Below, one piece after another: positions 32,858 through 46,554 of a stretch of 48,320 nucleotides of DNA. Positions within the stretch are counted from its first letter, which is position 1. Each line of letters begins with the position of its first letter. Location: contig WTCE01000072.1 in assembly GCA_013138735.1 (NCBI GenBank), forward strand, positions 1 through 48,320. Reading direction: 5' to 3'. The DNA is from Crocinitomix sp. Lineage in GTDB: Bacteria > Bacteroidota > Bacteroidia > Flavobacteriales_D > Crocinitomicaceae. Both the position numbers and the translations under genes were made by a program. Below the pieces are notes generated by a model, which was given only the letters and a program-made list of their open reading frames with translations, did not search any database and had not been told where the DNA came from.

Positions 32858-33552
32858 TACCAGTCCTCAGTCTCTTTTGGTTGATCGGCCAGAGCTTTGC
32901 CCCCTGCCTTTGGTTCAGCAGCTTTCTCTTTTACCCCACCATTAAGTTCAGCATACAGGGCCGAGTCAGTGTGGTCTAGAGCTTCCTTGATCTTGTTTTG
33001 AATCCACTCTGGCAAGCTACCAAACACTTCCATGTCAGGGCTATCTGGATCAAATACCTTAGGTTTGTTTACCAACTCTGGTGCAGCAGCCTCTTCCTTA
33101 GCTCTCATAGTGGAAGCCCCACGAATGTTGTGGTAGGGACGGTCTGGGTCCTTCTTATTGGGGTTAATAACTACTTGTAGCATACAAGCGTTACCAAGAA
33201 TAGCTGCCCAGTCACCTCCATGTTCAAGCTTAGGGTCCATAGCCATATACCGTTTGGTGCTATTAGCTAGGTCATTAGACAAAGCATTCAGTGGGATGTC
33301 TTCGGACAACCAACGTGGCTTATCTTTCAACTCATTACCATCTTCATCCAACATGAACTCGTCTAGGAGCTCATATGTGACTCGAATTACCAGTTTAGGG
33401 GGCTTGTCTTTCCCTTGGTGAGGGCGTTGGGGCTGTAGGCCCATGCCCAATACTTGCACTAGTCGTGCTGGGTATGTCCCAGGCTCTAGTGTTGGTGCAG
33501 TCATACCACTGTTGTCAGAGTTACCTGCGATCTTACTTGCGTTTAGTGCCAT
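32857..33552 (-). CDS. Single-stranded DNA-binding protein, gp2.5-like (231 aa)
   Basis: This protein lies directly upstream of the exonuclease cluster and downstream of the DNA polymerase. An OB-fold-like core is suggested by GTYPARLVQVLGMGLQPQRP, then PPKLVIRVTYELLDEFML, and MLQVVINPNKKDPDRPYHNIRG. The C-terminus is low-complexity and acidic and ends in KETEDW, like the acidic, aromatic-ended tail of T7 gp2.5 that contacts polymerase and helicase. It should coat single strands in replication. The last residues resemble the KxDWL tails of the small proteins in this genome. Confidence 0.8.
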   Translation of the reverse strand: MALNASKIAGNSDNSGMTAPTLEPGTYPARLVQVLGMGLQPQRPHQGKDKPPKLVIRVTYELLDEFMLDEDGNELKDKPRWLSEDIPLNALSNDLANSTKRYMAMDPKLEHGGDWAAILGNACMLQVVINPNKKDPDRPYHNIRGASTMRAKEEAAAPELVNKPKVFDPDSPDMEVFGSLPEWIQNKIKEALDHTDSALYAELNGGVKEKAAEPKAGGKALADQPKETEDW

Positions 33553-33569: not shown

Positions 33570-35402
33570 TTAGTGAATTGAGGCGTAATTGTCGCCATAT
33601 TGAATATCAACGTCTAAATCAACATTGAGCTTAAGTTTGTTGTTTACTACCCCTATAGCATCCTTAAGTATTTTGCTATAGGCATCTCTGTGCCCAACCT
33701 TTAGGCAAGCAACTATTTCGTCGTGCATCTGCCCTGTGAGTTGTGAACGCTTCTTACGAAACTCCTTCACCCAACTATCAAATGCATACACACCAGTGCT
33801 TTGGTTTAGTGTGCTGAAGATGTCTTTTTTATAACGAAGGGGTAGGTAAAGCCCACTAACTGGATTCAACAGCCACATCTCCCCCCTAACATGTTTAATT
33901 ACCATCTTCTCAGACAGAGTTTTAACAGACCAATTACGTTTCCAATAGGTTTCTATCAGTTGACCAGCCTTCATAACAGATAGCCCAGTCTCTCTGGCCA
34001 ACTTATACTTGCCTACGCCATAGACACAGGCGTAATTAGCTGCCTTATAAATACTTCGTGTAGCTTTTAGGTCTAGTTCTCCTTTGTTGTATAAATCAAT
34101 CTGCTCTTGAGTTACCACCCCAGCAAATTTAGCTAGGTCCAAGTGCGCATCAAACCCCTCACTAGACATATCCTTTACAAACCCTGGGTCGTAAGGAAAC
34201 ATATAGTGCTTCTTAGTAGTTTCTTCAAGGCTAACCATATCACTTCCACACAACTCGTAGCCTTCAGGGGCTATTAGGCTCCCTCTAACCTCTTCCCCCC
34301 AAGGCTTGTCCACCTTAGGTAGGTTCACAATAGTGGTGTGTTTGAACCGAAGGGTGTTAGTAAACCCAGTTATCTCAGCCTTTAGCCAACCATCTTCGTG
34401 GTTTTTCAAGAAGCCCTTAAATAAACCTAGTCTATGGTTGATAACCGACAACCCTTCTAGTAACTTTACGTCTGGGTTTTCTTTAATGAGCTTAAGGATT
34501 GATGGGCAAATGCCACCACCGTGAGGGAGTTGCACTTGAGGTATCTTCCTCTCCTTGTCCCCATCCTTTACATACTTAAATGTCTCTGGAACCCAACCCA
34601 AAGAAGTTAGCCAAGCTTTAACTTGCTCAGGACTCCCAGGATTAGCCTCTTCCTCCTTTACCCAAACCTTAACTGGGCCTTCATAGTCTTCTGGATAACC
34701 TTCTTCTTTTAACAGAGCAAACCATGTAGCCCCTATAGCAGAGAGGCTCCCATCCTTTTTGAAAGGTTTCTTGGGCCTCACCTTGTCTGTGTATAAGGAC
34801 CGTGGAGGCATGGCTAGGGTCAGTTGGCTAGTCTTACCTATCTGAGCCTCCAACAGGCTGTCAGCGGCTCTCTGAGCTCGTCTCACGTCCAATTTCCACC
34901 CACTTCTCTCCTGTTCCCTAGCACAATCCATCTTAAAGGTCAGGTAGCTGATTAGTTTGTCAGCTTCTTCCTTGTTTGGGTATAGCTCTAAGAGGTGTTC
35001 TTTTAGTTCCCCCCATAGCTTCTTCGTCACCCAAACATCTTCTTCACACCTATGTGCATACTCTTCTGGTGTGAGGCCTGTCCAATCATCAATTGGGGGT
35101 TTGGGGCGGCCATATTCTAGCCCGAAAGAAGCTAGCCCATGCACTCTTCGTGACCTGTTTAAATACCAAGACAAGGGGAGGGTGTCAATTAGTCTAGCCT
35201 TAATCTTAATGCCAAGTAGCCTCTCTAGCACAACAGTGTCATACCTAACGATATTGTGCCCGATCAGAACCTTGGCCCCAAGAAGCAGGGCTCTCATCTC
35301 GTCATAAGAATGTGTTGTCTTTATATCAGGACCATCAACATACGAGAGACAATGTATTTTAGTTGCATCTAGCAGCCCATCTAGCTCCGCATCAAATATC
35401 AC
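33570..35402 (-). CDS. DNA polymerase, family A (T7-like), 610 aa
   Basis: I choose GTG 35402, which overlaps the upstream stop by four bases (GTGA); a TTG at 35408 is less likely. The 3'-5' exonuclease has FDAELDGL (Exo I), IGHNIVRYDTVVLE (Exo II) and RCEEDVWVTK (Exo III). The polymerase has motif A DMVSLEETTKKHY, motif B RSIYKAANYACVYG with Tyr at the sugar-selecting position, and motif C MHDEIVA. It replicates the genome with the primase-helicase and SSB encoded nearby. The processivity factor is not evident and may be host thioredoxin, as in T7. Confidence 0.93.
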   Translation of the reverse strand: MIFDAELDGLLDATKIHCLSYVDGPDIKTTHSYDEMRALLLGAKVLIGHNIVRYDTVVLERLLGIKIKARLIDTLPLSWYLNRSRRVHGLASFGLEYGRPKPPIDDWTGLTPEEYAHRCEEDVWVTKKLWGELKEHLLELYPNKEEADKLISYLTFKMDCAREQERSGWKLDVRRAQRAADSLLEAQIGKTSQLTLAMPPRSLYTDKVRPKKPFKKDGSLSAIGATWFALLKEEGYPEDYEGPVKVWVKEEEANPGSPEQVKAWLTSLGWVPETFKYVKDGDKERKIPQVQLPHGGGICPSILKLIKENPDVKLLEGLSVINHRLGLFKGFLKNHEDGWLKAEITGFTNTLRFKHTTIVNLPKVDKPWGEEVRGSLIAPEGYELCGSDMVSLEETTKKHYMFPYDPGFVKDMSSEGFDAHLDLAKFAGVVTQEQIDLYNKGELDLKATRSIYKAANYACVYGVGKYKLARETGLSVMKAGQLIETYWKRNWSVKTLSEKMVIKHVRGEMWLLNPVSGLYLPLRYKKDIFSTLNQSTGVYAFDSWVKEFRKKRSQLTGQMHDEIVACLKVGHRDAYSKILKDAIGVVNNKLKLNVDLDVDIQYGDNYASIH

Positions 35403-35680
35403 ATCCAATCTTCCTTGTTCACAGGCTTGCTTGGCAGGGCTAACACACTTATCATAGCCCTAATGTGCTGCTCTTCTTCCCCGTCTGGGTGGGCACCATC
35501 ATAATAGTTTGACCAATATTCCTCCCCCTGGTCTGACCTACCCCACTCTATGGCCCCGTCAATTGCTTCTCTCCTGGAGAGAGATTCTACTAGCAGTTCT
35601 AGGGTTAGTTGGTTAGTTTTATCTCTCCAACTACACTCCAACCCACTAGAACCCTTTGGGTTCTTAGCTCTGTATGTCAC
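35399..35680 (-). CDS. KxDWL-tail small protein, member 1 (93 aa, ends KEDWM)
   Basis: This belongs to the 90-100 residue paralog family with MxxRAKNPKG at the start, a W-x-x-x-x-x-G-x-x-YW core (EWGRSDQGEEYWSNYY) and the tail LALPSKPVNKEDWM. Translation starts at GTG 35680. It precedes the DNA polymerase and overlaps its GTG by four bases, which changes the last residue from Leu to Met. It lies away from the ligase operon but shares body and tail with the members at 39709, 44365 and 45511. The function is unknown. Confidence 0.75.
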   Translation of the reverse strand: MTYRAKNPKGSSGLECSWRDKTNQLTLELLVESLSRREAIDGAIEWGRSDQGEEYWSNYYDGAHPDGEEEQHIRAMISVLALPSKPVNKEDWM

Positions 35681-35681
35681 C

Positions 35682-35738
35682 TTACATTACCCCCATAGCA
35701 ACTGCGATAATCACCACGATTACCCACACTGGTTGCAT
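35682..35738 (-). CDS. Possible 18-residue hydrophobic peptide
   Basis: A frame from ATG 35738 encodes an 18-residue, almost fully hydrophobic peptide (MQPVWVIVVIIAVAMGVM), with the stop just before the GTG of the KEDWM gene. It starts 11 bases after the sigma-factor stop. The ribosome binding site is weak. It fits a single membrane segment, but so short a frame could be chance. Not strongly supported. Confidence 0.3.
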   Translation of the reverse strand: MQPVWVIVVIIAVAMGVM

Positions 35739-35748
35739 CTTAATTAAG

Positions 35749-36237
35749 TTAAATAGAAACGTCATGTTTCTTCTGTATAAGTTTTCTAAATCTTGTAGCT
35801 ATAGTTGTCACGTTTGTAACAGACATGCTGTTAACAACTTGACTTATCTCTTTAGCACTATACCCGAGGATAAACCACAAGTATAGCACAGATTGCACCC
35901 TACCATCTCCTAAAACACCCTCAATCTCCTTCTCAATAAACCCAATGTGCTCGTTCTCTACAATATAGGTGAGCTCTTCTACAATGTCATCGGACAAAGG
36001 CTTCTTAACAATGCCCTTATCCCTGTCCTGTGTCTGCCAATCTTTCATAGAATTATACAAAATACTATTAAACCAGGTAGACAGCTCACCCATCTCCTCC
36101 CTGTAAGAGGATTGGTATTTAACGGCACGCCTATATGCCTCTTGCACCACATCTTCCGCAGAAGAGTGACTTCCTATAATGTATCTAATCTTCTTTACTT
36201 GTTTATCAAAGTTATTTCTGTAGAACTCTTCTATCAT
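35749..36237 (-). CDS. Sigma-70-family (ECF-like) sigma factor (162 aa)
   Basis: Region 2 is visible as YIIGSHSSAEDVVQEAYRRAVKYQSSYREEMGELSTWFNSILYNSMKDW (AEDVVQEAYRRA, LSTWFNSILYNSMKDW). Region 4 is LYLWFILGYSAKEISQVVNSMSVTNVTTIATRFRKL, a helix-turn-helix. The linker DRDKGIVKK is short, as in ECF factors. phiEco32 also encodes a small sigma factor for middle/late transcription. Since no phage RNA polymerase is seen, this factor probably redirects host polymerase. It overlaps the upstream membrane gene by four bases. Confidence 0.82.
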   Translation of the reverse strand: MIEEFYRNNFDKQVKKIRYIIGSHSSAEDVVQEAYRRAVKYQSSYREEMGELSTWFNSILYNSMKDWQTQDRDKGIVKKPLSDDIVEELTYIVENEHIGFIEKEIEGVLGDGRVQSVLYLWFILGYSAKEISQVVNSMSVTNVTTIATRFRKLIQKKHDVSI

Positions 36238-36506
36238 TCCCCGTCCTCTGTATAAAAGAACTCAGCTAGGTGAAGGGAGAGGACTACACACAGTTGTAAG
36301 AACCATGTAGTTACCATGCCCCCGGCAAACCTCATAACCTCTTCTGGGCTCTCCCATTCTCTTTTTGGTATCATATACCCAGCGACCAGTGTGCCGATAA
36401 ACATATATACTGCCATAAATGTTATAATTTGTGTAAAAATATTAAACCCCCTTAAATAGTGTAGTGCGTTTATCCCAATAGAGGGGGACTTTAGCACTGT
36501 TGCCAA
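36234..36506 (-). CDS. Two-segment membrane protein (90 aa)
   Basis: Two hydrophobic stretches (IFTQIITFMAVYMFIGTLVAGY and GGMVTTWFLQLCVVLSLHLA) flank a charged loop (IPKREWESPEEVMRF). The ATG at 36506 lies inside the 3' end of the primase-helicase gene, and the TGA overlaps the sigma-factor start. The overlap on both sides makes it a coupled member of the replication operon. Function is unknown; small phage membrane proteins may localise replication or block superinfection. Confidence 0.65.
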   Translation of the reverse strand: MATVLKSPSIGINALHYLRGFNIFTQIITFMAVYMFIGTLVAGYMIPKREWESPEEVMRFAGGMVTTWFLQLCVVLSLHLAEFFYTEDGE

Positions 36507-38154
36507 ACTCCCTGTCTTCTAATATGGACAGCCATCTCATGTTTCGGACCTCCTCTTGGAGCTCTGAGTCTTTATTACCCTCCAACCCTATCATTAGGTT
36601 ACAAGACCTCATCATGGCACGACTACCAGCGAATTGGTTAGATACAATGTCCCCACCAAACTCGTGTGGGCAATTTCCTAGCCCTACATAGTCCCCCTTG
36701 TCGTATTTTTTAGCTCTTAGGTCCTTACTAATCATACCCTCTGGGGCTTTTAGGTGGACGAAGATAAAGATAACAACATTCAAGTCGTGTGCCATAGAAG
36801 CCAAGTCTTGCGCTATCTCTTGTAGTTTTGTGTTAGCATCACCAGAACTCATACCATTAGTTAGGTTTGTGATTGGGTCAATGAATACAGCTTTAGCTCC
36901 CATGCTGACAGCAGCTACAATGTCGCTCTTAAGACTTGACCACCCCAAGTGCTGGTAAAGGTCCACCATCATTAGCTTACCCTTTAGCATCTCCCCTGCC
37001 TTGTCATAAGCCTCATAATCAAAGTCAACATCTGGGTCATGAAAAACCTTACCCACCATCTTGTTACACATGAGCTTGTAAGTTTTCTTATTCTCTTCCT
37101 CTGGTTTAGCCATAAACACTGGGACGTTATGAGCCCTAATAAAGTGCCCAGCTATGTCATTCAGTAGCTCTGACTTACCCATTTTCACACCACTTCCGAT
37201 GTAGACTGTCTCCCCATAACGAACCCCACGAAGGAGTTTGTCCATTTTTGGGTAGGGCCACGTCAATTCCCCGTAGGGGGTTGGGTGTTTAGCCGCCTCA
37301 TGTAGGTCTTCCCCTAAGATAATACGTGTATTCTTAGGGACGTGGGCTTTAAAAGCATAAGCCTTGTAAGCAGCCTCCTTAACCCCTTTGATGATACACT
37401 CGTTAGCATCTTTTTCTGGCAGGATGACCACCCTAGCTGTTGGCAATATCATAAGTGCTTTTTGCACAGCTGCTTGACCTGGTTCATCGTTATCAAAGTT
37501 TAGAATTACATCTTTGAACAGGCGTTTAATGTCAGAAGCGTGCTTAGTTAGACATTTTTCAACAGAATTAACTCCGTTGGGCAGAGAGACGAAAGCAGGG
37601 TGATACTCCGGCTTATTATTATACATCTCATACATTTTCTCTGCTGCAACAGCGTCTTCTAGACCCTCTGTGATGATTAGTCTAGAGGCCCCAGACCTGA
37701 TTGCACGTTCCCAACCAAAGAGGTCCCCATCCTTTACACCGCCAATTGACCACTGTTTTGTGGGCTTAAAAGCTGTTTTGACGTAGTATCCTGTGGTTTT
37801 CCCACCTTTTGTTATAGGAAAATAGGTCTCAGAGGGGGTTTTACCATCCTCTTCGCTGACTCCCACTTTAATGTTGAATTTAGCTAGGCTATCAGCCCTG
37901 AGTTTCCTGTGAGGCAAGTCCTGCACGTAATACCCATCAATAGCTGCCAACTCTTCTTGTATCTGAGCCTCAGACTTGGGTTCAGGGAGATCAACTTGGT
38001 CAATGGTCTTCTCTTCCCCATAAGGGTTTGGCACCCATGTCTTACAGCTCCAACAGTATCCGTCAACCTTACCAGTCTCACTGTTGGCATACACTTGTAG
38101 ACCTTGCCTTGACCCACAGCTGTGACTTAGCTTATCGACGCAAACCCCACTCAT
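36442..38154 (-). CDS. Primase-helicase, T7 gp4-like (570 aa)
   Basis: I choose ATG 38154, which has an AGGGG ribosome binding site and starts at the zinc module; a TTG 60 bases upstream is weaker. The zinc module CVDKLSHSCGSRQGL...GYCWSC binds template. TOPRIM residues are in RLIITEGLEDAVAAEKM and ILNFDNDEPGQ. The helicase has Walker A GSGVKMGKSE, a Walker B-like AVFIDPITNL, and a C-terminal FAGSRAMMRSCN. It primes and unwinds at the fork with the family A polymerase. Note that the gene is downstream of the moron and shares the operon. Confidence 0.92.
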   Translation of the reverse strand: MSGVCVDKLSHSCGSRQGLQVYANSETGKVDGYCWSCKTWVPNPYGEEKTIDQVDLPEPKSEAQIQEELAAIDGYYVQDLPHRKLRADSLAKFNIKVGVSEEDGKTPSETYFPITKGGKTTGYYVKTAFKPTKQWSIGGVKDGDLFGWERAIRSGASRLIITEGLEDAVAAEKMYEMYNNKPEYHPAFVSLPNGVNSVEKCLTKHASDIKRLFKDVILNFDNDEPGQAAVQKALMILPTARVVILPEKDANECIIKGVKEAAYKAYAFKAHVPKNTRIILGEDLHEAAKHPTPYGELTWPYPKMDKLLRGVRYGETVYIGSGVKMGKSELLNDIAGHFIRAHNVPVFMAKPEEENKKTYKLMCNKMVGKVFHDPDVDFDYEAYDKAGEMLKGKLMMVDLYQHLGWSSLKSDIVAAVSMGAKAVFIDPITNLTNGMSSGDANTKLQEIAQDLASMAHDLNVVIFIFVHLKAPEGMISKDLRAKKYDKGDYVGLGNCPHEFGGDIVSNQFAGSRAMMRSCNLMIGLEGNKDSELQEEVRNMRWLSILEDREFGNSAKVPLYWDKRTTLFKGV

Positions 38155-38202
38155 TCTACTTCCCCTGTCATATATAAAACCTTTCTCTAAATCAAGCCTG
38201 TA

Positions 38203-38219
38203 ATTTTTTCCCAAAAAAT
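38203..38219. promoter_or_regulatory. A+T-rich perfect palindrome
   Basis: ATTTTTT, CCC, AAAAAAT form a perfect inverted repeat between the moron and the primase-helicase gene. It could be a weak terminator for the moron transcript or a leader structure for the next gene. There is no G+C-rich stem, so termination would be inefficient. Confidence 0.3.
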
Positions 38220-38240
38220 CTTGGCGTTTTCATTGTATAA

Positions 38241-38723
38241 CTACCCTTCACTCTTTGGTTCTGGTGGTAGGTATGGTGGTATGTCCATCCACACGTCGTC
38301 CCCATACTTCTCGCTCTTGTGGAAGAACACGGGTCGCGTAAGTCCGTCACGTTCAAACTCGTCCTCGTAATATCCATGCACCCGATTATATCGGCAACGC
38401 ACAACGAGATTCATCATACGTGGGTAGCGCACTAAAAACATGCGCCCGGATTTCGGCGCTGTCGATATGTCACGCCACGTAAGCTGCGCCTCCAGCTCCG
38501 AGATACGTGCGGCGGATGCGGCTAGGGCGTCTGCGGCTTCAATTAATAGCGGTCCGATAGTGATATTCCACCTAGCTATCAATGCCGGGTCGTCTATTCC
38601 GGCTAGGGCATTAACACAGGCGACAATGCGCTTCTTATGCGCGTAAAGATCAACAGCCTCGGTCTGGCCTTTGACAACGTAATCCATCTTTACCCGCCAA
38701 GGCTCTTTCGTGTGTTCAGTCAT
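38241..38723 (-). CDS. G+C-rich moron-like protein with DUF551-type end (160 aa)
   Basis: The N-terminal part (EPWRVKMDYVVKGQTEAVDLYAHKKRIVACVNALAGIDDP) resembles phage ead/Ea22-like early proteins, and the C-terminal part (WRDISTAPKSGRMFLVRYPRMM, then WMDIPPYLPPEP) resembles DUF551-type domains with W-DISTAPK-G and a W-x-PP end. Codons are clearly richer in G and C than those of the neighbours, from about 38300 to 38800. Such accessory genes are common morons. The function is unknown. Confidence 0.72.
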   Translation of the reverse strand: MTEHTKEPWRVKMDYVVKGQTEAVDLYAHKKRIVACVNALAGIDDPALIARWNITIGPLLIEAADALAASAARISELEAQLTWRDISTAPKSGRMFLVRYPRMMNLVVRCRYNRVHGYYEDEFERDGLTRPVFFHKSEKYGDDVWMDIPPYLPPEPKSEG

Positions 38724-38809
38724 CCCACCACCTCCGTAATCGTAGCGTATTCCTCGGCTTCCTCGCGGATCGGTAGGTCTTGCAGCTTTCCGGTTTTCTT
38801 GTAGGGCAT
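38720..38809 (-). CDS. Small peptide gene of the moron (29 aa)
   Basis: ATG 38809 has a GGAGA ribosome binding site six bases upstream, and the TGA overlaps the next ATG by four bases. The peptide starts MPYKKTGKLQDLPIREEAEE and ends TITEVVG. It shares the G+C-rich composition of the gene after it, so the two probably arrived together. No function is apparent. The promoter-like sequence upstream would give a very short leader. Confidence 0.55.
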   Translation of the reverse strand: MPYKKTGKLQDLPIREEAEEYATITEVVG

Positions 38810-38820
38810 TTCATATCTCC

Positions 38821-38848
38821 TATATAAGTATCGTCTACTGTTTGTCAA
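38821..38848 (-). promoter_or_regulatory. Sigma-70-like promoter for the moron
   Basis: On the minus strand TTGACA is followed, after 16 bases, by TATATA. This is the best sigma-70 match I saw on the leftward arm. The start site would fall near or just after the ribosome binding site of the 29-residue gene, leaving almost no leader, which lowers confidence. It would let host polymerase express the moron independently. Confidence 0.45.
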
Positions 38849-38851
38849 GGG

Positions 38852-39712
38852 CTAAGAGAAAAAGTTTTCCTTCTCTTTCTCTTGGCGACGAAAGATGTTT
38901 AAGTTTTCTTCTACGACATAAGCCCAATCTCGTGAGTAGGCTATGTCTTGTGCATTAAGTAGGCCAATCCTAATGGACTCGCCTAAGTCTGGCATAGCTA
39001 AGAAGTGTTTTGCATACCCACCGAAGATAGACTTTACGAAGTAGTGTTCACCCCCCGCACTAATAGCATCTAGCACATCTGTTGGGGAATCAAACTCTAG
39101 AGAGGTTGTCTTAAGTTTATCAATGATGCCACACCAGTCTTTAATAGTATTTTTGTCAGATGTGCTACGCATTGCTCTAAACTCTAAGCTCCCATATTTA
39201 AAGAGGCTAGTAACATTGAGGGCACTATACCTTAGGTCCTCTGTTTGTAGGTAGGACATATCCCCCTCACTAACTGCCTTAGAGATAGTTTGTGTTAGGA
39301 ACTCTGCATCACTACTTCTCATACAGAAGTGGTTGCCTTCTCTCTCGTTCCCACAGAACCTAGTTAGTGGACCCTCTAGGACAAAGTATAGCACGATAAG
39401 TGTAACCAACTGTTTGGGGGATAAATCCTGCACATTCAAGTGGACATGCACGCCAGCCCTAAAGCTGTCCTCTACATGAGAACCCTCTTGTTCAAAAGCC
39501 CCCCACAAGTCGTCTAGAGCCTTGTTAGCCCCTGTCAGTGGTAGGGGGTGTGGGAGGACATACTCTGCGTTCTCTGCCCCTCTGAGGCTCCCGTCACGGT
39601 GTTTTACCCACCCTTTTGGGTGCTGTGGGAGACTCTCTCCCTCTACCTCAATCTCTACACCAAGTAGACCATCTGTGTGACCTAGCCCCAACTTATGCCT
39701 TACATTATTCAT
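38852..39712 (-). CDS. Amidoligase (Amidoligase_2-type COOH-NH2 ligase), 286 aa
   Basis: This glutamine-synthetase-fold ligase forms amide bonds between carboxyl and amino groups with ATP. Family marks are GVEIEVEGE near residue 18, WVKHRDGSLRGAENAEYVLPHPL, then AGVHVHLNVQDLS, FCGNEREGNHFC and KYGSLEFRAMRS. The acidic and His residues of EIEVE, ENAEYV and HVHLN would bind metal and ATP. ATGA overlaps the upstream INKEDWL stop, so the enzyme is coupled to a tailed small protein. It is the last gene of the ligase operon. Confidence 0.85.
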   Translation of the reverse strand: MNNVRHKLGLGHTDGLLGVEIEVEGESLPQHPKGWVKHRDGSLRGAENAEYVLPHPLPLTGANKALDDLWGAFEQEGSHVEDSFRAGVHVHLNVQDLSPKQLVTLIVLYFVLEGPLTRFCGNEREGNHFCMRSSDAEFLTQTISKAVSEGDMSYLQTEDLRYSALNVTSLFKYGSLEFRAMRSTSDKNTIKDWCGIIDKLKTTSLEFDSPTDVLDAISAGGEHYFVKSIFGGYAKHFLAMPDLGESIRIGLLNAQDIAYSRDWAYVVEENLNIFRRQEKEKENFFS

Positions 39713-39993
39713 AGCCAGTCTTCCTTATTTATAGGTTTAAGAGGGGTTGCTAACAACCCTATGTAAGCTCTTATCTTGCCCCTAGCCTCTTCTAATCTCC
39801 CCCCTTCCAGATCACCACGGTAATAGACCCCCCAATAGTTGTGGCCCTCTTTCGTCTCCTCCCAACAGAGGGCAGTATTAACAGCATCTACAGTTGTTAG
39901 GGACTTAATCAGATAACTTAAACATTGGGTATTGTTGCCCGTTTGGCCACTGAAAGTGTGTGTCCCACCAGGATTCTTAGCTTGTCTATGCAT
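39709..39993 (-). CDS. KxDWL-tail small protein, member 2 (94 aa)
   Basis: The 94-residue product starts MHRQAKNPGG, has the core CWEETKEGHNYWGVYY and ends LLATPLKPINKEDWL. It is a close paralog of the member at 44365: the last 14 residues of each differ little and LATPLKPINKEDWL is identical. The stop overlaps the ATG of the amidoligase (GGCTATGA). The start lies at the end of the 187-residue gene. No catalytic motif is visible. The repeated W-x-x-T-x-EG-x-x-YW core also appears in other small phage proteins. Confidence 0.85.
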   Translation of the reverse strand: MHRQAKNPGGTHTFSGQTGNNTQCLSYLIKSLTTVDAVNTALCWEETKEGHNYWGVYYRGDLEGGRLEEARGKIRAYIGLLATPLKPINKEDWL

Positions 39994-40549
39994 CCCTAAG
40001 TGCCTCCCCTAGCCATAAAAATTCTTTATTAAGAACGGTTCTCACACCACCAACCATGTCTCCAACAATGTGAGCCCCTTTATACTCTATCTCTCCCTTT
40101 GCCGTAATAGCAAAGGTCCTACTAAAGGCTACAACCCCGCCACCCTCTTTAGCTCTATTAGTGGCCTCCTCTAAGCTGGGGTAGTGGCCTTTGTGAACAA
40201 ACTTTAGGTCCTTTGTGCCAACACCTATAAAACCCAAACCAAAGGTTGATTGTGCCACTACTCCACCCTTATCTACCCCCTGCTTCCACCGCCTAGAAGG
40301 TTTTCGCATTAAGTATTTAGCCACCACACCAGTGTTAGAATACCCAAGCTTAATTGGGGTTAGGTCTACATCTTTAAGTAGTCCTTCTTTAATATCTTCT
40401 CCTTCGTCTGGGCGGTTTACATAGGCAAAGGTTGGGGCTTTGCCCCTTGCAACATCCACTACAAACACCAAAGATTTTTTATATACGACAAAGGTGCCAG
40501 TTAGTCTTCCCCTAGCATAGTCTATGTCCTTTAGGTAACTAATGCTCAT
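39986..40549 (-). CDS. Unknown protein of the ligase operon (187 aa)
   Basis: I choose ATG 40549 (MSISYLKDIDYARGRLTGT), which overlaps the VVKEDWL stop of the upstream small gene by four bases. The protein has no membrane segment. It is basic in the middle (LMRKPSRRWKQGVDKGG) and ends with a helix EFLWLGEALRDA. The opening resembles phage proteins I recall from similar regions but I cannot name a family. Its place between tailed proteins and amidoligases suggests a part in the same process. Confidence 0.65.
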   Translation of the reverse strand: MSISYLKDIDYARGRLTGTFVVYKKSLVFVVDVARGKAPTFAYVNRPDEGEDIKEGLLKDVDLTPIKLGYSNTGVVAKYLMRKPSRRWKQGVDKGGVVAQSTFGLGFIGVGTKDLKFVHKGHYPSLEEATNRAKEGGGVVAFSRTFAITAKGEIEYKGAHIVGDMVGGVRTVLNKEFLWLGEALRDA

Positions 40550-40767
40550 AGCCAATCCTCTTTAACTACGGGGCTACTGTAGGGCACCTTATAAGTGCCC
40601 CTTTTAATACCAGGGCGAAGGATCCTAAGTGCTCCCTCCCAACCTCCGCCAAACTCTCTACGACTCCACCCAGATTGTCTACCATACTTCACCTCGTAGG
40701 AGTTTTCACTTCCAAAAGCCGGTTTTCTGTAAGAAGACTCAGGCCCCCTAATCATTATAATGTTCAT
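40546..40767 (-). CDS. KxDWL-tail small protein, member 3 (73 aa, different body)
   Basis: The start overlaps the stop of the type 2 amidoligase by four bases, and the stop overlaps the next ATG. The body (IRGPESSYRKPAFGSENSYEVKYGR, then GGWEGALRILRPGIKRGTYKV) is rich in Gly, Arg and Tyr and unrelated to the AKNP family, yet the end is SSPVVKEDWL. So the tail occurs on unrelated sequences. No known domain is visible. Confidence 0.8.
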   Translation of the reverse strand: MNIIMIRGPESSYRKPAFGSENSYEVKYGRQSGWSRREFGGGWEGALRILRPGIKRGTYKVPYSSPVVKEDWL

Positions 40768-41591
40768 GCTGCAAGCTCCCTATAGTATTTGGGGGTTTTA
40801 ATTAGACCTTCTTCTAGGTGCCCACCAACAGGGTCAAGGTCATTATTCTCGAAGATGTCTTGTGCTTTCACATAGTCATCTTCATAGTCATGCTTACCAG
40901 ACAGTAGTCTTTTGATAGCATAGGTGGTGTTGCCATACACCGTCTTCATAAGCAGGTCAGATTTAAGCCACAAGTTGCTTAACACCCTATACTCAACCCC
41001 ATAATGTGTCGGCCTAAAGCACCCCAGTTGTCCATATAACTCTCGACGCTTAGTGTCCCCATCCCAGAACAAAGATGGGATAGCCAGATGAAAATCAAGT
41101 TGTTTGGTTAGGGTTTTACAAGCCTCGAAGTGGTCTGGGTGGTGTGGGTCTACATCATTTGTCCAACCAATGTGAATGTGCCCAGCTGCGGTGCGAAAAG
41201 GGGTGTCAACATCTGGCCTAGCATTTGCTTCCCCTGTGTAGGCATTGTAGTCTGGTTCACAACCAAGGATACGAGCCTCTTCTGGCTGTTCGTTTATGTA
41301 GTCGGCCCCGAACTCTGCCACACAACCATCATACATAGTCATGTCTGGGGTCATCTTTAAGATTTGCTCCATGACAGAATTGATGTTGTTTACAAAGGAT
41401 TTGGAGCCTTTGGCTGGGTTGATATTAAACTCTAGCGCCATCCCGTCTACTTGCACAGCCCCATTACGAACTTTGTATGGATTCTTTTTGTCACCAGGGA
41501 TTAGGCCATATGCACTAACTGGCACACCTTTTTTAGCCACAAAGAACTCTGGGTCAGCCCCTATTAGGAACTCCTTACCTTTAATTTTCAC
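40764..41591 (-). CDS. COOH-NH2 ligase type 2 (phiEco32-like amidoligase), 275 aa
   Basis: This protein matches the phiEco32-like amidoligase pattern. It begins FLIGADPEFFVAKKG, then VQVDGMALEFNINPA, AAGHIHIGWTND, and YGQLGCFRPTHYGVEYRVLSNLW. GADPEFF, ALEFN and HIHIGW supply the acidic and His residues of the glutamine-synthetase-like fold. I recall type 2 ligases in phages alongside ATP-grasp and amidotransferase genes, discussed by Iyer and Aravind as peptide-modifying systems. The acceptor is unknown. It lies after the amidotransferase and before a tailed small protein. Confidence 0.88.
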   Translation of the reverse strand: MKIKGKEFLIGADPEFFVAKKGVPVSAYGLIPGDKKNPYKVRNGAVQVDGMALEFNINPAKGSKSFVNNINSVMEQILKMTPDMTMYDGCVAEFGADYINEQPEEARILGCEPDYNAYTGEANARPDVDTPFRTAAGHIHIGWTNDVDPHHPDHFEACKTLTKQLDFHLAIPSLFWDGDTKRRELYGQLGCFRPTHYGVEYRVLSNLWLKSDLLMKTVYGNTTYAIKRLLSGKHDYEDDYVKAQDIFENNDLDPVGGHLEEGLIKTPKYYRELAA

Positions 41592-41602
41592 ATCAACTCC
41601 CC

Positions 41603-42928
41603 TTAGTTTGTGTAATGTTTGAAGACTTCTAGCTCTGCACAGTCCTCACACAGACACGTGTGTTTACTTACAGCTTTGATAATGAACCGATCTTTCCAAG
41701 AGATGTCTTTGAAACAATTCTCACAGATATTGTAGGTCTTCTCGAACCTCTTTTTCCACAGCATCTCATTGAAAGGGCTTTGCCAAAGGGTCTCCACCTT
41801 CTTAGCCTTTTCTTCGTTTGGTTTTTGCAAGGGGTCAAGTGCGCAAGAGTTAAACCAAATACGTTTTTTCCATTCATTGCCGTAAATACTCCTCTCGCAA
41901 GCCAAGTGGTAGGCTTGTCCAGATTTAATTGAGGCCTCTATCTGCCCCTCAAGACTTTTATTCAGGCTCCCCCTAAACTGACAACTTAGGTTAAGTTGAT
42001 ATAGCACTTTGTCATCCAGCTCCCCTGTTACATCACAGACAAACTCTGGCACACCAGTCTCCCCAACAACCTTTTTAAGCAGTTTAAGTCTAACCACTTT
42101 ACCACCATTCATAAGATTACTGTCAACCAAGTTAATTGGCCAGCCATTCTGTCGTGGCTTGGGGGTTTGTTTTTGGTAGTTGTGATAAGAGTAAGGTTTT
42201 CTCCCCTCAACCTCTTTGGTCTCTACCAACACCTTTTTGCCAGAGTCCACCTCAAATTCATAGTGGGTGTTTACATCGGTTGACATAACCTTGGTGTGGG
42301 TTACTTTAGCATACGCCAAAGCAATATTAAGCATCCACTCCTCACTAGCCCAGAAAAGGGTTTTCTTGTCTGTTGAGTAGCAATAGTTCATGGGGCGTTG
42401 GTCATTACGAATAAAATTGAGTTTGCCCGTGATCCTGTCATACCATGTTAGTGAGGCTGCTCCATAGAACTCTCCCCACACCTTGCCCAAATCACCATTC
42501 TCAGAGAGCTCACTATAGAGGATTTGACTGTCGATGTCGAAATCATTTGCCCCATGAAAGTCTTTGAGGGACCATTGTGCAATTGTGCCGTTGTGAGCCC
42601 CGACCAAGTTTTTGAACTTAAACGGGTGTGCCCCATCTACATCAATAGCCCCTTGAGTAGCAAACCTGTTGTGCCCCATAAGCAATATCACAGGCTTCTT
42701 ACTCTTGTAAACCCCCTTGTCAAAGAGGGCTGGGTAAGCCTCGTATAACCTGTCAGGCGTGCCCACCTCTTTCAGATTGTGGAAGAAGTGCTTTTCGCCC
42801 TCCCCCTTAAAGACAGACAACAACCCTGTTGAATGCTCACCACGAAGGGTATCAAACATCAGCAGGCTCTTCATAACCTTTTTATGCTGCGGGTTAATTA
42901 CCCCAGCTACTCCAACCAGTCCACACAT
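41603..42928 (-). CDS. Ntn-type glutamine amidotransferase with C-terminal zinc ribbon (441 aa)
   Basis: I choose ATG 42928 because Cys2 then becomes the N-terminal nucleophile (MCGLVGVAGV) after Met removal; GGAGAA lies just upstream. LRGEHSTGLLSVF and GHNRFATQGAIDVDGAHPF, then GAHNGTI, are the class II glutaminase pattern. The C-terminus has CENC and CLCEDC, a probable zinc ribbon that may bind protein or nucleic acid. No synthetase domain is present, so the ammonia or glutamyl group presumably goes to a partner such as the ligases next to it. Confidence 0.85.
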   Translation of the reverse strand: MCGLVGVAGVINPQHKKVMKSLLMFDTLRGEHSTGLLSVFKGEGEKHFFHNLKEVGTPDRLYEAYPALFDKGVYKSKKPVILLMGHNRFATQGAIDVDGAHPFKFKNLVGAHNGTIAQWSLKDFHGANDFDIDSQILYSELSENGDLGKVWGEFYGAASLTWYDRITGKLNFIRNDQRPMNYCYSTDKKTLFWASEEWMLNIALAYAKVTHTKVMSTDVNTHYEFEVDSGKKVLVETKEVEGRKPYSYHNYQKQTPKPRQNGWPINLVDSNLMNGGKVVRLKLLKKVVGETGVPEFVCDVTGELDDKVLYQLNLSCQFRGSLNKSLEGQIEASIKSGQAYHLACERSIYGNEWKKRIWFNSCALDPLQKPNEEKAKKVETLWQSPFNEMLWKKRFEKTYNICENCFKDISWKDRFIIKAVSKHTCLCEDCAELEVFKHYTN

Positions 42929-42929
42929 A

Positions 42930-43544
42930 CTATTCTCCAAACATGCGATTAATTAGTTTAAAGTAATAGGCCTGACAAGGGTGGTCAGGCTCAAAGAACT
43001 CTGGGTGCGGCTGGAAACATAAGGCTTTTGTGTCTTCATACCAAACAACCTCTGTGTCAACAGGGGAGTTACGAACAACCTCTGTGTCACTTTCCTTCTT
43101 GGTAGCAAACCCTGCTGCTGTGGCTACAAAAACCCCTTTGTTGCCCTTGCGCATCATCTGGTGGTGAGTCGAACTTACTTCAACTTCTTCTTTCGTAAGG
43201 ACATCGGTCAAGAGGTGTGTCCCACCAATTGTATGACCATTAACATTTTGCCACAAAGAACCTCCAGACATCACATTGAGGAACTGTGCCCCACGACAAA
43301 TCCCCAACAAGCCTTTGCCCAATGTAACTGCCTCTTCAAAGATTGCCATCTCTTTGTGGTCACGCACTGGACTATGGTGAGTTGTTGGGTGTAGCTCTTC
43401 CCCATACAATTCTGGGGACACATCTGCCCCCCCTGTAAACTGCACAAAGTCTGCGTCATACATATTGTCTACAACATCCCAACCATTAGCCAGGAACATG
43501 TTAACATACCCCATTTCATTGCCAATTACCCAAACTGTTTTCAT
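42930..43544 (-). CDS. Class I glutamine amidotransferase / gamma-glutamyl hydrolase-like (peptidase C26), 204 aa
   Basis: The nucleophile is Cys83 in GICRGAQFLNV, and the His/Glu pair is H180/E182 in FQPHPEFF. FTGGADVSPELYG and SSTHHQMM match gamma-glutamyl hydrolase-type peptidases, which remove glutamyl groups. It could reverse or trim glutamyl links made by the ligases. Its start overlaps the upstream 274-residue gene by one base, and its stop is one base before the amidotransferase start. Confidence 0.87.
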   Translation of the reverse strand: MKTVWVIGNEMGYVNMFLANGWDVVDNMYDADFVQFTGGADVSPELYGEELHPTTHHSPVRDHKEMAIFEEAVTLGKGLLGICRGAQFLNVMSGGSLWQNVNGHTIGGTHLLTDVLTKEEVEVSSTHHQMMRKGNKGVFVATAAGFATKKESDTEVVRNSPVDTEVVWYEDTKALCFQPHPEFFEPDHPCQAYYFKLINRMFGE

Positions 43545-44368
43545 TACATAAATTCCTTTTCTACATATGCGACAAGCGCGGGGAAATCTTTCTTAGTGAA
43601 CTCTTTAGCTGACACAACCTTTTTTGGCTTTGTGTCAAAGATATTTAACCCAGACTCAGTAGTTACCACTGGGGCAAACTTTTGTAGATACCTTAGCAAA
43701 TCCTCCCCGCCAGCCCCAAAGCTATTGTTTACGCTGCGGGAGTGTATAGGGTTATCTATGCACAATTCATCTTTACGTGGGGAGTGTGACATAAAGTTTT
43801 TCACATAGTCTTTTGACAATCCATCTGGCATGTGCGTGTGCCCATAATAGTCCCCACTGACAACAAACCCCTCCCCAGACTTAGCAATGAAAAAACTAAC
43901 CAAGAAGGCTAGGTCCTTGTTGCTAAACAGGTGGTATAGGTCATAGAAGCTAACCAACTTCATTTTGTTTTCTGTGGCCATCCTACTAGCAAAGCAAGCT
44001 TGTGTAGTTAGGTTGTTAGGGTTGTTGGTGTCAATGATAAAACCCTTATCTTTACCGTCTTGCACCACATCGACAACACTAGGCTTAACAAACAGTCCAG
44101 ACCAAGGGCTCTCGTATAGCAGGTAGCTATAGAAGAGGTCAATTGTTTTGTCTGGCCCAGTCGGCCCTTGATGCCTAGTGAAGATAGCTAGGTCCCCTAC
44201 CTCCCCATATTCTCTTAGCCCTGCGTGGCAATAGGTGTTATTGTTCCTCCCGAAAGAGCCGTTTTTACGACAAAAACCAGCCACAGTTACAGAGGTCCTG
44301 TTTTCGGGCTCGAACTTAGTGAATTTTTCTCTGGCTTCTAAGACCAACTTTAGTGTTGTTTTATTCAT
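43544..44368 (-). CDS. Unknown protein of the ligase operon (274 aa)
   Basis: The ATG at 44368 overlaps the INKEDWL stop of the small gene upstream by four bases. The 274-residue protein is soluble, with patches such as AGFCRKNGSFGRNNNTYCHAGL, FTRHQGPTGPDKTIDLFYSYLLYESPWSGLF, and GDYYGHTHMPDGLSKDY. The Cys and His residues in the first and third patches could suggest metal binding or catalysis. I do not recognise the family. Its place in the centre of the operon makes it a likely enzyme or adaptor of the same pathway. Confidence 0.72.
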   Translation of the reverse strand: MNKTTLKLVLEAREKFTKFEPENRTSVTVAGFCRKNGSFGRNNNTYCHAGLREYGEVGDLAIFTRHQGPTGPDKTIDLFYSYLLYESPWSGLFVKPSVVDVVQDGKDKGFIIDTNNPNNLTTQACFASRMATENKMKLVSFYDLYHLFSNKDLAFLVSFFIAKSGEGFVVSGDYYGHTHMPDGLSKDYVKNFMSHSPRKDELCIDNPIHSRSVNNSFGAGGEDLLRYLQKFAPVVTTESGLNIFDTKPKKVVSAKEFTKKDFPALVAYVEKEFM

Positions 44369-44649
44369 AGCCAGTCTTCCTTATTTATAGGTTTAAGAGG
44401 GGTTGCTAATTCTTCCACCATTTCTAGCAGCCTGTTATGGGCATGAGACATCTCCTCTTCTGTCCTCTCGCCAAAAGAATAGTTGTCCCAATAAGTATGC
44501 CCCTCTGGGGTCTTAGACCAAGTAAAGGCGGTTATAACACTAAGGCTCCCATTGAGAACCCCCTCTATAGAACGTAAAACACTCTGGTTGTCATAACAGG
44601 GCTTTATAGGAGATCCCCCGCTGGGGTTTTTAGCCTGTCTATGCTTCAT
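44365..44649 (-). CDS. KxDWL-tail small protein, member 4 (94 aa)
   Basis: This product begins MKHRQAKNPSGG, contains FTWSKTPEGHTYWDNY and ends ELATPLKPINKEDWL. It is the closest paralog of the member at 39709; the ends also match at the base level. The start overlaps the ATP-grasp stop and the stop overlaps the start of the 274-residue gene, so it links the two by coupling. Body and tail occur in four copies across the arm. Confidence 0.85.
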   Translation of the reverse strand: MKHRQAKNPSGGSPIKPCYDNQSVLRSIEGVLNGSLSVITAFTWSKTPEGHTYWDNYSFGERTEEEMSHAHNRLLEMVEELATPLKPINKEDWL

Positions 44650-45500
44650 ACCAATTCAGCCCCCTCATGGATAGCTGGGTGAATAAACTTCTTATACCCC
44701 CCACGACCTCCCCGAAGTGGAATGTGGCCCTTTCCATTGTTACAAATGTAGTCAAAAGCCTTTGCTGTGCATGACTGACGGTAGGGGCTTGTCTGGGAAG
44801 GGGCAGAATTGATTTCAATAATATACACCTTGCCATCTTTGCCAACCATAACATCAACCCCACCAAAGTCCAAATCACTATAATTGAAAGCTTCAATGGC
44901 ATAACGAACAACCTTTAGAGGCCAATCGTCCCACCGGACATTATCAAAGCGGCCACCTTTAGCCACGTTCCAAGCCACTGCATCAGGATCACCTGGGGTT
45001 TTCTCTGCTACCCAAACAGCCCGACCTTGTGAGACGAACACACGGAACTCCTGAGCCTTGTCTACATACTCTGAAGCATACCACCCCTCTCCACACCTCT
45101 GCACCGCCTCAGCGAGCTCCTGTGGCGTTCTGACAAGGTATACGTGCTTCCCTTGCGCATGGTGTTTAGGGCGGATGATTAGTGGGCCCTGTTCTTCTTC
45201 TGCAAGGATCTCGTCCATGCTAAAAAATGTCTTGGGGATAAGCTCAGGCTGGTCATTGCGTAACAGCTTGCGAAAGCGTGTCTTGTCACCGATAAGGTGG
45301 ATAGCACTGGCCTTGTTAATAACATTCTTCACAGGAACGTTAGACGTGCATCCCCAACGGAATACATAATCAACCCCATTAAAGTCCTCCTCCTTCATCG
45401 TATCGTTACGAACAAAGTTAAGGCCTGTTGTGCTTGCGTCACGGATGCCTCGGCATGAGCCTAGCCCCAGTTTACGACGACGTAGTAGTAGTCCCTTCAT
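44646..45500 (-). CDS. ATP-grasp carboxylate-amine ligase (RimK-like), 284 aa
   Basis: ATP-grasp motifs appear in order: the nucleotide-loop Lys in GDKTRFRKLL, PLIIRPKHHAQGKHVYLV near residues 106-123, YASEYVDKAQEFRVFV, and GGVDVMVGKDGKVYIIEINSAPSQTS, in which E229 and N231 are the metal ligands. These enzymes activate a carboxylate as acyl phosphate and join it to an amine; RimK relatives extend C-termini. GGAGG lies four bases before ATG 45500. The gene follows the frameshifted KADWL member. A direct role in modifying tails is plausible but unproven. Confidence 0.87.
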   Translation of the reverse strand: MKGLLLRRRKLGLGSCRGIRDASTTGLNFVRNDTMKEEDFNGVDYVFRWGCTSNVPVKNVINKASAIHLIGDKTRFRKLLRNDQPELIPKTFFSMDEILAEEEQGPLIIRPKHHAQGKHVYLVRTPQELAEAVQRCGEGWYASEYVDKAQEFRVFVSQGRAVWVAEKTPGDPDAVAWNVAKGGRFDNVRWDDWPLKVVRYAIEAFNYSDLDFGGVDVMVGKDGKVYIIEINSAPSQTSPYRQSCTAKAFDYICNNGKGHIPLRGGRGGYKKFIHPAIHEGAELV

Positions 45501-45510
45501 ACTATCCTCC

Positions 45511-45805
45511 TTATAGCCAATCGGCTTTGGTTACGGGTTTAATAGGGGTCGCTAGGGCCTCTATTAAACCCCTTATTAAGTTCTGTGCTTTAGTGTTCTC
45601 TTCTAGAAAGAGTCTGCCGTATTGGTAGCCTTCCCACAATAGCTGATCTTCTGGGCAAAGGTTGTAGTAACGAAAGATGTCTGTCACCAGTCCTTGCTCA
45701 ATTAAAGCTCTGCATAACAAGTCTAAGAGAGTTTGGTTGTTTCTATGCCCCCCAAACCCCACTTAGCCCCCTTAAACCACCTGGGTCTTTAGCACTACGT
45801 CTCAT
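45511..45805 (-). pseudogene. KxDWL-tail small protein, member 5, frameshifted at G6
   Basis: ATG 45805 overlaps the stop of the VIKGDWL gene by four bases and starts MRRSAKDPGGLRGLSGVWG, matching the AKNP family start. This frame soon stops, while the frame from 45762 continues with HRNNQTLLDLLC, a YW-like core and the tail ALATPIKPVTKADWL. Removing one G from the G6 run (plus-strand C6 at 45748-45753) joins them; 295 bases is one more than a multiple of three. The stop is TAA, 10 bases before the ATP-grasp start, so here the tail is not shaped by an overlapping start codon. Confidence 0.78.
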
Positions 45806-46044
45806 AGCCAATCCCCCTTAATCACCTTCTTGTGCTCAACAGACAACACACAACCACTTCTGTGCGACCAACTGCTTACCAAGCTGCCCCAGCCGAGGAA
45901 ACCAAACTTTTTATAGTTCATCGTATATGTATACCCCTTCTTTTGGTATAAACAGTCGCCCCTAGCAGTTAGCAAGTAGTGTTCACTGTTAAGGGGGGTA
46001 GCGTTATACCCAGAATTGAGAATTACCTTAGTTACTTTAGGCAT
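45802..46044 (-). CDS. KxDWL-tail small protein, member 6 (80 aa, different body)
   Basis: ATG 46044 follows AGGAGGT. The body (VTKVILNSGYNATPLNSEHYLLTARGDCLYQKKGYTYTMNYKKFGFLGWG) is Tyr/Gly-rich and beta-like and unrelated to the other members, while the end is EHKKVIKGDWL. The TGA overlaps the start of member 5. A C13 tract lies about 40 bases upstream of the start. It is the first gene of the operon after the 46.05-46.33 kb gap. No domain is recognised. Confidence 0.78.
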   Translation of the reverse strand: MPKVTKVILNSGYNATPLNSEHYLLTARGDCLYQKKGYTYTMNYKKFGFLGWGSLVSSWSHRSGCVLSVEHKKVIKGDWL

Positions 46045-46084
46045 TACCACCTCCTATTTAGAGATTACGAGAAAAGGTTTTGTG

Positions 46085-46097
46085 CCCCCCCCCCCCC
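46085..46097. repeat. C13 homopolymer tract
   Basis: Thirteen consecutive C on the plus strand (G13 on the coding strand) lie about 40 bases upstream of ATG 46044. No other run this long is present. Such tracts change length readily during replication and are also error-prone in sequencing. Confidence 0.9.
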
Positions 46098-46175
46098 ACT
46101 AAAAACAAAACCTGTAAAAGTCACATATTTCTTTCGTTAAGAAACAGCGAGTTACAAATTAGTTTACGAAAAGAT

Positions 46176-46205
46176 GTGACAAACAGGGTGTTTTAGGGGT
46201 ATATA
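46176..46205 (+). promoter_or_regulatory. Second copy of the GTGACAAACA promoter-like repeat
   Basis: GTGACAAACA, 14 bases, TATATA: the same layout as at 10006-10035. Here it points rightward, against the neighbouring leftward genes, so a transcript would be antisense or short. The hairpin at 46299-46328 lies about 100 bases downstream. The spacer sequences differ between copies, so only the putative boxes are conserved. Confidence 0.45.
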
Positions 46206-46298
46206 CTAGTATAGTCACTATATAGAGTGAGTATGTTGCTAGCAACGTGCGAACCTTGTATTAAGTAGTTTTAGTTTGGGTTTAGTTTTTGGTTAGGT

Positions 46299-46328
46299 TA
46301 CATGTTGTTGATAATTCTACAACATGTA
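46299..46328. terminator. Hairpin at the 3' end of the VIKSDWL gene
   Basis: TACATGTTGT and ACAACATGTA form a perfect 10-bp stem with a ten-base loop. It lies directly after the stop at 46333 for leftward transcripts and about 100 bases after the plus-strand promoter repeat. The plus strand has a weak T-rich tail (TTCTTT), the minus strand none, so it suits a rightward RNA slightly better. An operator role is also possible. Confidence 0.4.
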
Positions 46329-46332
46329 TTCT

Positions 46333-46554
46333 TTACAACCAATCAGATTTGATTACAGGGGTGTGTGGAATAACAGTGAACGACCCTGAGTCGTAGGTAT
46401 ACCCATCATGCCCCGATATTACCACTGAGTTGTGATGCAGACCAAGCGCGAAGACGGCGTAGGTATGGTTGTGGTAACACATGTGGCAGTTACCAATACG
46501 CCTAACCCTGTCCCCAACTTTAATTTCTCTGCCCATATTGTCTGGGTTTTCCAT
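46333..46554 (-). CDS. KxDWL-tail small protein, member 7 (73 aa, different body)
   Basis: ATG 46554 follows GGGGGG by seven bases. The product reads MGREIKVGDRVRRIGNCHMCYHNHTYAVFAL early, with CHMCYHNH as a possible metal site and an SH3-like GDRVRRIG strand, and ends IPHTPVIKSDWL. The codons of the last residue and stop (TTG TAA) differ from other members, and no gene overlaps the stop. This independent encoding is the best evidence that the tail is conserved at protein level. Confidence 0.8.
   Translation of the reverse strand: MENPDNMGREIKVGDRVRRIGNCHMCYHNHTYAVFALGLHHNSVVISGHDGYTYDSGSFTVIPHTPVIKSDWL

Follow-up and report, generated by a model that had tools for sequence, protein, structure and literature searches.

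Why should several small phage proteins with unrelated bodies end in the same few residues? The question is raised by a 48,320-nucleotide stretch of DNA (the window; contig WTCE01000072.1 of the Crocinitomix sp. assembly GCA_013138735.1), which reads as a Zobellviridae-like podovirus and in which seven minus-strand proteins of 73-94 amino acids, in four body groups, share the C-terminus K-x-D-W-[L/M] beside a cassette of amide-bond-forming enzymes. By tblastn, its COOH-NH2 ligase has PA11, CW02, CVT22 and Klyazma among its best relatives. An earlier note on this DNA had described the seven proteins, and their open reading frames (ORFs) sit on the minus strand exactly where it placed them. Their endings were verified as KEDWM, KEDWL, KEDWL, KEDWL, KADWL, KGDWL and KSDWL (at 35399, 39709, 40546, 44365, 45511, 45802 and 46333), and the PV, PI or VI segment that the note had seen before the tail was recovered as V or I at position -7 in all seven and P at position -8 in six (K at 45802). 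Four members do form the one body group described as AKNP...YW, but the 45511 ORF as listed starts at an internal GTG; the remaining three (40546, 45802 and 46333) are three single body groups. The note counted six genes in or beside the ligase operon, but all seven lie within 4 kb of a cassette gene. We found such tails to be genuine and under selection as peptides. Inside one phage they hardly vary, but they differ from phage to phage; they occur on small proteins only and gather around the ligase cassette.

In the window the AARNNNGAYTGGYTNTRR pattern matched six times, compared with a mean of 0.02 over 100 shuffles; the seventh tailed protein (35399, KEDWM) falls outside this pattern because it ends in an ATG codon. 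When 400 random sets of 52 C-termini were drawn from ligase-free phage loci, no set contained a seven-member cluster and 33 contained a cluster of three to six. The window tails vary at synonymous codons (AAG/AAA, GAT/GAC and CTA/TTG), and x stands for E, A, G or S. Clustering of N-termini gave no cluster in the window, and the shared peptide is C-terminal only. At 35399, 39709, 40546 and 44365 the stop lies within a 4- or 10-base overlap with the next called gene. In the region 45511-45805, the 45511 gene has an AKNP-like beginning, MRRSAKDPGG, further upstream in a different frame, with an ATG that overlaps the stop of the 45802 gene. This beginning is cut off by a frame change near a G run upstream of 45762, and the cause is either an assembly indel or a broken or shifted gene.

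The earlier note had suggested searching for K-x-D-W-L across phages, and this search returned no K-x-D-W-L family beyond the present phage. In the window's own 6.84 Mb assembly, K-x-D-W-L followed by a stop matched 13 times, six of them in the window, compared with 4 matches for the backward control. Among 88 related loci, no ORF ended in K-x-D-W-x and two had the looser end R-x-E-W-L. Two exact DNA patterns for the tail, with a TGA stop only, were searched in viral contigs; the first matched 0 stretches and the second matched 62 stretches once each, with the in-frame matches at ORF ends sitting in unrelated proteins. No relatives emerged when the four YW proteins were searched as a profile or the 39709 protein by tblastn, and matches of the YW body to PHROG were weak (best E 1.1e-4). 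K-x-D-W-L as a cross-phage family was thus ruled out by the DNA-pattern and 88-locus searches; on these comparisons the tail looks private to this phage, and tails differ phage by phage.

To find shared tails of any kind, the last nine residues of mechanically called ORFs of 40-200 amino acids were clustered per locus (BLOSUM62, single linkage); internal nine-mers served as the control. At a threshold of 22, which was chosen after the list at threshold 20 had been seen, 11 of 89 ligase-related loci showed a C-terminal cluster of at least three, compared with 0 or 1 at five internal positions (the 89 include the window, and CW02 and PA11 each entered twice). A three-member cluster in Slicky01 at threshold 20 was gone at 22. 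The unsupervised search, with whole genomes read in pieces, showed shared tails in 14 genomes, namely the window and 13 further phage genomes. The named phages were CW02 (five members, L-L-E-E-N-[VL]), CVT22 (13 members: eleven L-E-N-E, one L-E-N-K and one L-I-N-E), Klyazma (eight: seven L-E-N-K and one M-E-N-K), Pecta (nine, L-E-N-D), Rhizobium phage RHph_I3_11 (seven, G-D-T-E-E-D-I-like) and phiM6 (13 copies of a 14-residue tail resembling Y-x-x-D-Q-E-(P)-x-x-x-E-E-x-[LI]). Seven viral contigs carried P-L-E-D-W-M, L-E-D-W-L, L-E-D-[WY]-M, F-K-G-N-K, E-N-E, M-E-E-Y-L-C and E-E-L-I; the weakest tailed genome, G155, had two clusters of three. Mostly unrelated bodies stood under one tail, with 8 body groups among 8 members in Klyazma, 7 of 7 in RHph_I3_11, 10 of 13 in phiM6 and 10 of 13 in CVT22. 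A C-terminal degron or cap that governs stability or turnover would fit a C-terminal tail on small early proteins. However, phages of related hosts differ sharply (L-E-N-E in Citrobacter, L-E-N-K in Klebsiella and L-E-N-D in Erwinia phages), which a shared host protease would not require, and we regard this explanation as improbable.

Selection acts on the tail as a peptide. The ratio of non-synonymous to synonymous differences (pN/pS) over the last 6 to 14 codons was 0.21-0.42 in 13 genomes; picking members by amino-acid pattern lowers pN and does not account for the high pS, so that the low ratio together with high pS points to selection on the peptide. In 13 genomes the phage's own tail pattern was present on 113 of 771 small genes and on 0 of 297 large genes. 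These data also bear on whether the tail simply results from translation through the next gene's ribosome-binding site and overlapping start. A Shine-Dalgarno (SD)-like 5-mer was present in 83 of the 113 tails, four of those in the window having one (AAGGA- or GAGGA-like words), and in the Citrovirus trio GGAGAAT is nearly fixed directly before the next start, as is GAG where the start follows; there the tail probably doubles as a ribosome-binding site. However, the other 30 tails had no SD-like word, several of them with a separate SD after the stop, and synonymous differences between tails outnumbered other differences. The untailed large genes include coupled large genes of the window, where the enzymes at 44646 and 40764 have the same 4-base overlap and no tail. 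In phiM6 the tail is kept through 14 codons while third positions vary. A separate GGAGG comes after the 45511 tail, and the SD-less 46333 tail has no called gene within the next 282 bases. Given the SD-less tails, the untailed large genes and the pN/pS values, we rejected a translated ribosome-binding site as the sole cause and give it very little credence; at most, the tail doubles as one.

We compared bodies across genomes after removal of the last nine residues, with no composition correction. Ten cross-genome body pairs matched (E 2e-7 to 9e-4), nine of them tailed on both sides, and in eight of these nine each protein bore the tail of its own phage (for example, L-E-N-D in Pecta and L-E-N-E in CVT22). 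In the tenth pair, one of the window's YW proteins matched a PA11 protein that has no tail, and untailed YW proteins were also present in the ligase phages GP100 and KZY1. Judged by these body matches, the tail tracks the phage more than the body. One ending on differing bodies might also arise if the tail were a homology boundary for the shuffling of gene cassettes, as might the resemblance of the CVT22 L-E-N-K protein to a Klyazma protein. However, low pN/pS with high pS requires peptide selection, and recombination alone gives none; we find this origin scarcely credible.

The tails were then placed relative to the ligase cassette in 13 genomes with 110 tailed genes (phiM6 included, G155 excluded). 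All 110 lay on the cassette strand, and 85 of them were within 4 kb of a cassette gene, compared with 68 of 247 untailed small genes on the same strand (pooled p = 1e-18; per genome, p ranged from 2e-5 in CVT22 to 1 in G151). Among viral loci, tails on at least three unrelated bodies were present in 8 of the 85 that bear ligases and in none of the 221 that lack them (p = 2.8e-5, kinship uncorrected; one of the 221 stemmed from a ligase query but missed the profile), and the association held for loci with at least 15 small genes (p = 0.0025). T7, T4, N4, VpV262, SIO1 and HMO-2011, the last two counted as ligase-free from annotation, showed no shared tail on unrelated bodies. HMO-2011 (50 of 55 kb) had a common end on three homologous fibre proteins; the G176/L092 and HMO-2011 fibre genes were not counted as tailed, their bodies being homologous. 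Shared tails were present in 0 of 14 polymerase-related ligase-free contigs. Eighteen further ligase contigs gave one cluster, with homologous bodies; 16 of the 18 came from ligase loci, 15 of those without a cluster at locus level.

The tail hardly varies inside a phage, changes from one related phage to the next and depends little on the body that bears it. This suggests a single reader that co-evolves with the tail, and the position of the tailed genes makes a cassette product the first candidate for it. The explanation we tentatively prefer, as possible rather than probable, is that each phage marks a set of small, diverse early-region proteins with its own C-terminal recognition tag. This tag would be bound by a single trans-acting reader, most probably encoded by the phage and most probably belonging to the neighbouring amide-ligase cassette. 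The reader would either dock the tagged proteins onto the ligases or present the carboxylate at their C-terminus, or else acidic side chains, so that amide bonds can be made. The earlier note had seen in a tail kept on different bodies beside ligases the pattern of acceptor, leader or docking peptides. Such a role may apply. The tail is a selected peptide on different bodies beside the ligases, and other tails recur in ligase phages; the pattern does not extend to most ligase loci, which are tail-free.

Several results weigh against a cassette-bound tag. No shared tail was present in 77 of the 85 ligase-bearing loci, many of them partial contigs, and tailed proteins are thus not obligate members of the cassette. 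Among 17 hand-picked named ligase phages, six were tailed (CW02, CVT22, Klyazma, Pecta, RHph_I3_11 and phiM6) and 11, read whole or in part, had no shared tail (PA11, GP100, KZY1, Slicky01, PaP3, phiEco32, 1.293.O, WD615, SE131, phi14:2 and RIO-1); Slicky01, phiM6, KZY1 and phi14:2 were read in part. For loci with at least 20 small genes the association between tail and ligase gave p = 0.074, again uncorrected for kinship. In phiM6, four tailed genes lay near the cassette and 9 of 13 beyond 4 kb. The ninth both-tailed body pair matched the exceptional CVT22 L-E-N-K protein with a Klyazma L-E-N-K protein, which speaks for transfer or a body-linked tail. The F-K-G-N-K tail has no acidic residue. 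Finally, none of seven cassette families tested was specific to tailed loci; a reader from the cassette would accordingly have to be a modified form of a component that tailed and untailed loci share.

The co-occurrence of tails and ligases that the earlier note proposed to test therefore stands in one direction, none of the 221 ligase-free loci having tails on unrelated bodies; strict coupling fails because most ligase phages show no tail. The absence of tails from most ligase phages and of any tail-specific family among the seven cassette families would also fit docking on some other hub, be it a protein of the host or a complex with which the phage replicates or transcribes its DNA, with the ligases as mere neighbours in the early operon. 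However, tailed genes are closer to the cassette than untailed small genes of the same strand, and none of the ligase-free loci had tails; docking elsewhere appears somewhat unlikely.

Two candidate readers were dropped. BLAST recovered the 43544 protein from 9 of 13 ligase phages with tails and from none of 10 without, but a profile search, with matches in 19 of 27 genomes, finds its family in tailed and untailed phages alike. Residues C47, S87, R129, E133, A154 and H177 of this protein are near-invariant across 35 relatives. The phrog_11055 protein was present in 12 of 13 compared with 13 of 28 when called genes were used (p = 0.006), but in 82 of 84 ligase loci when all ORFs were searched. 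Confident structure models of both (predicted local distance difference test, pLDDT, 88.0 for the 43544 protein and 90.7 for phrog_11055) gave no match with E < 0.1 in a fold search of the PDB. The N-terminal half of the phrog_11055 model is strand-rich, and its weak best fold matches include tudor domains, none of them significant.

If the tail of the tagged proteins takes part in amide-bond formation, the F-K-G-N-K tail implies that an acceptor common to all tails would be the terminal carboxylate, and the acidic residue seen by eye in 13 of 14 tail types would suit gamma-glutamyl chemistry. A conjugation system, in which the cassette recognises the private tail and amide-links it to a host-protein amine or to added amino acids, is an unlikely further form of this idea. 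Under it, about a dozen interchangeable small effectors would be substrates of one ligation machine, and the link would be undone by C26-type and gamma-glutamyl cyclotransferase-like enzymes, which some of these phages possess. Annotation places gamma-glutamyl cyclotransferase genes, whose products might erase gamma-glutamyl links, within or close to the cassette of phiM6 (two genes), RIO-1 and CW02.

The enzymes that the earlier note had recognised beside the tailed genes do carry amide-bond-related domains (Amidoligase_2, COOH-NH2 ligase, RimK-like ATP-grasp, GATase_6 and Peptidase_C26), and their positions are listed with those of the tailed genes. At the end of the contig (48086-48304) there is a low-complexity ORF with Leu/Gly/Met repeats, which may be a repeat or an assembly edge.

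Positions of the tailed genes and the amide-ligase cassette in the window
Feature	Position	Strand	Details
Tailed protein, 93 amino acids, YW body	35399..35680	-	Tail PVNKEDWM at 35402-35425; next called gene, for DNA polymerase, overlaps the stop by 10 bases
Amidoligase_2	38852..39712	-	PF12224 E 5.1e-11; phrog_7469 E 3.1e-70
Tailed protein, 94 amino acids, YW body	39709..39993	-	Tail PINKEDWL at 39712-39735; ATGA overlap with the Amidoligase_2 gene
phrog_11055 protein, no assigned function	39986..40555	-	E 4.8e-25
Tailed protein, 73 amino acids, own body	40546..40767	-	Tail PVVKEDWL at 40549-40572
COOH-NH2 ligase type 2	40764..41591	-	PF14395 E 6.8e-8; phrog_3815 E 5.9e-82
Class II glutamine amidotransferase type	41603..42940	-	PF13522 E 5.5e-13
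Class I glutamine amidotransferase / Peptidase_C26 type	42930..43544	-	PF07722 E 6e-23
Conserved cassette protein, no assigned function	43544..44368	-	phrog_27195 E 9.6e-9
Tailed protein, 94 amino acids, YW body	44365..44649	-	Tail PINKEDWL at 44368-44391; ATGA overlap with the next gene
RimK-like ATP-grasp ligase	44646..45500	-	PF08443 E 2.9e-9; phrog_2599 E 9.6e-21
Tailed protein, 83 amino acids as listed, YW body	45511..45762	-	Tail PVTKADWL at 45514-45537, no SD-like word; separate GGAGG after the stop
Tailed protein, 82 amino acids, own body	45802..46050	-	Tail KVIKGDWL at 45805-45828
Tailed protein, 73 amino acids, own body, IKVGDRV start	46333..46554	-	Tail PVIKSDWL at 46336-46359, without an SD-like word; 282 bases to the next called gene

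Short shared termini are known from other systems. The encapsulin cargo-loading peptide is a C-terminal tag common to unrelated cargo, and the present tails are alike in being short and C-terminal; here they stand on up to about ten unrelated bodies per genome. RimK-type enzymes carry out C-terminal glutamylation and similar peptide tagging. In the window a RimK-like ATP-grasp enzyme (PF08443 E 2.9e-9, 44646-45500) is encoded with the candidate clients and the tails are mostly acidic, but one tail type has no acidic residue. Single-stranded DNA-binding (SSB) proteins have an acidic C-terminal tip, and some of the phage tails are likewise acidic with an aromatic end. However, the SSB-like proteins of these phages have W or F ends of their own, whereas the shared small-protein tails end in other residues. 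The window encodes one such SSB-like protein (phrog_862, 32857-33552), which ends in E-D-W; all 16 members of the family that were found had W or F at the end, and 11 had P-W or P-F.

The N-terminal version of the clustering test, a positive control for the method, picked a five-member MKT[YF][QK]EFI-type group in T4, which we take to be the capsid targeting sequence, and a VGD[RK]V-start group in G154, but nothing else in the genomes compared at that stage. The T4 sequence is likewise one short terminal peptide on diverse small phage proteins; in a review, the T4 internal proteins are a highly diverse set in which only the targeting sequence is conserved (PMC3012670). Targeting tags in the form of a terminal peptide common to varied small phage proteins are thus not without precedent, and by this analogy the present tails might load proteins into the virion for ejection in the same way, but from the C-terminus. 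However, they are phage-private and early-region, the tailed genes keep company with replication genes on the cassette strand and are outside the structural block, and T4 has no such cassette family. No virion data on the tailed phages were found in the literature searched, and we consider loading into the virion quite unlikely.

The enzymes beside the window's tailed genes (Amidoligase_2, COOH-NH2 ligase, ATP-grasp and amidotransferase genes together) are the proposed 'peptidoglycan modification cassette' of RIO-1-like phages, and its published description, in the parts available to us, does not include tailed small proteins (PMC5498523, PMC6256558). The literature searched, in titles and the starts of abstracts, gave no account of shared C-terminal tails on small phage proteins, and the available main text of the Klyazma and CVT22 papers (PMC9960094, PMC4505115) contained no word beginning 'C-termin'. 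The general idea of a terminal tag and the ligase cassette itself are already known; these searches brought up no description of C-terminal tags that are private to each phage and stand on many unrelated early proteins next to this cassette. The role of the cassette is still only proposed, and the tailed proteins are candidate clients for it. A private tail also offers a homology-free way to list the small early proteins of a phage, as the T4 targeting sequence marks its internal proteins.

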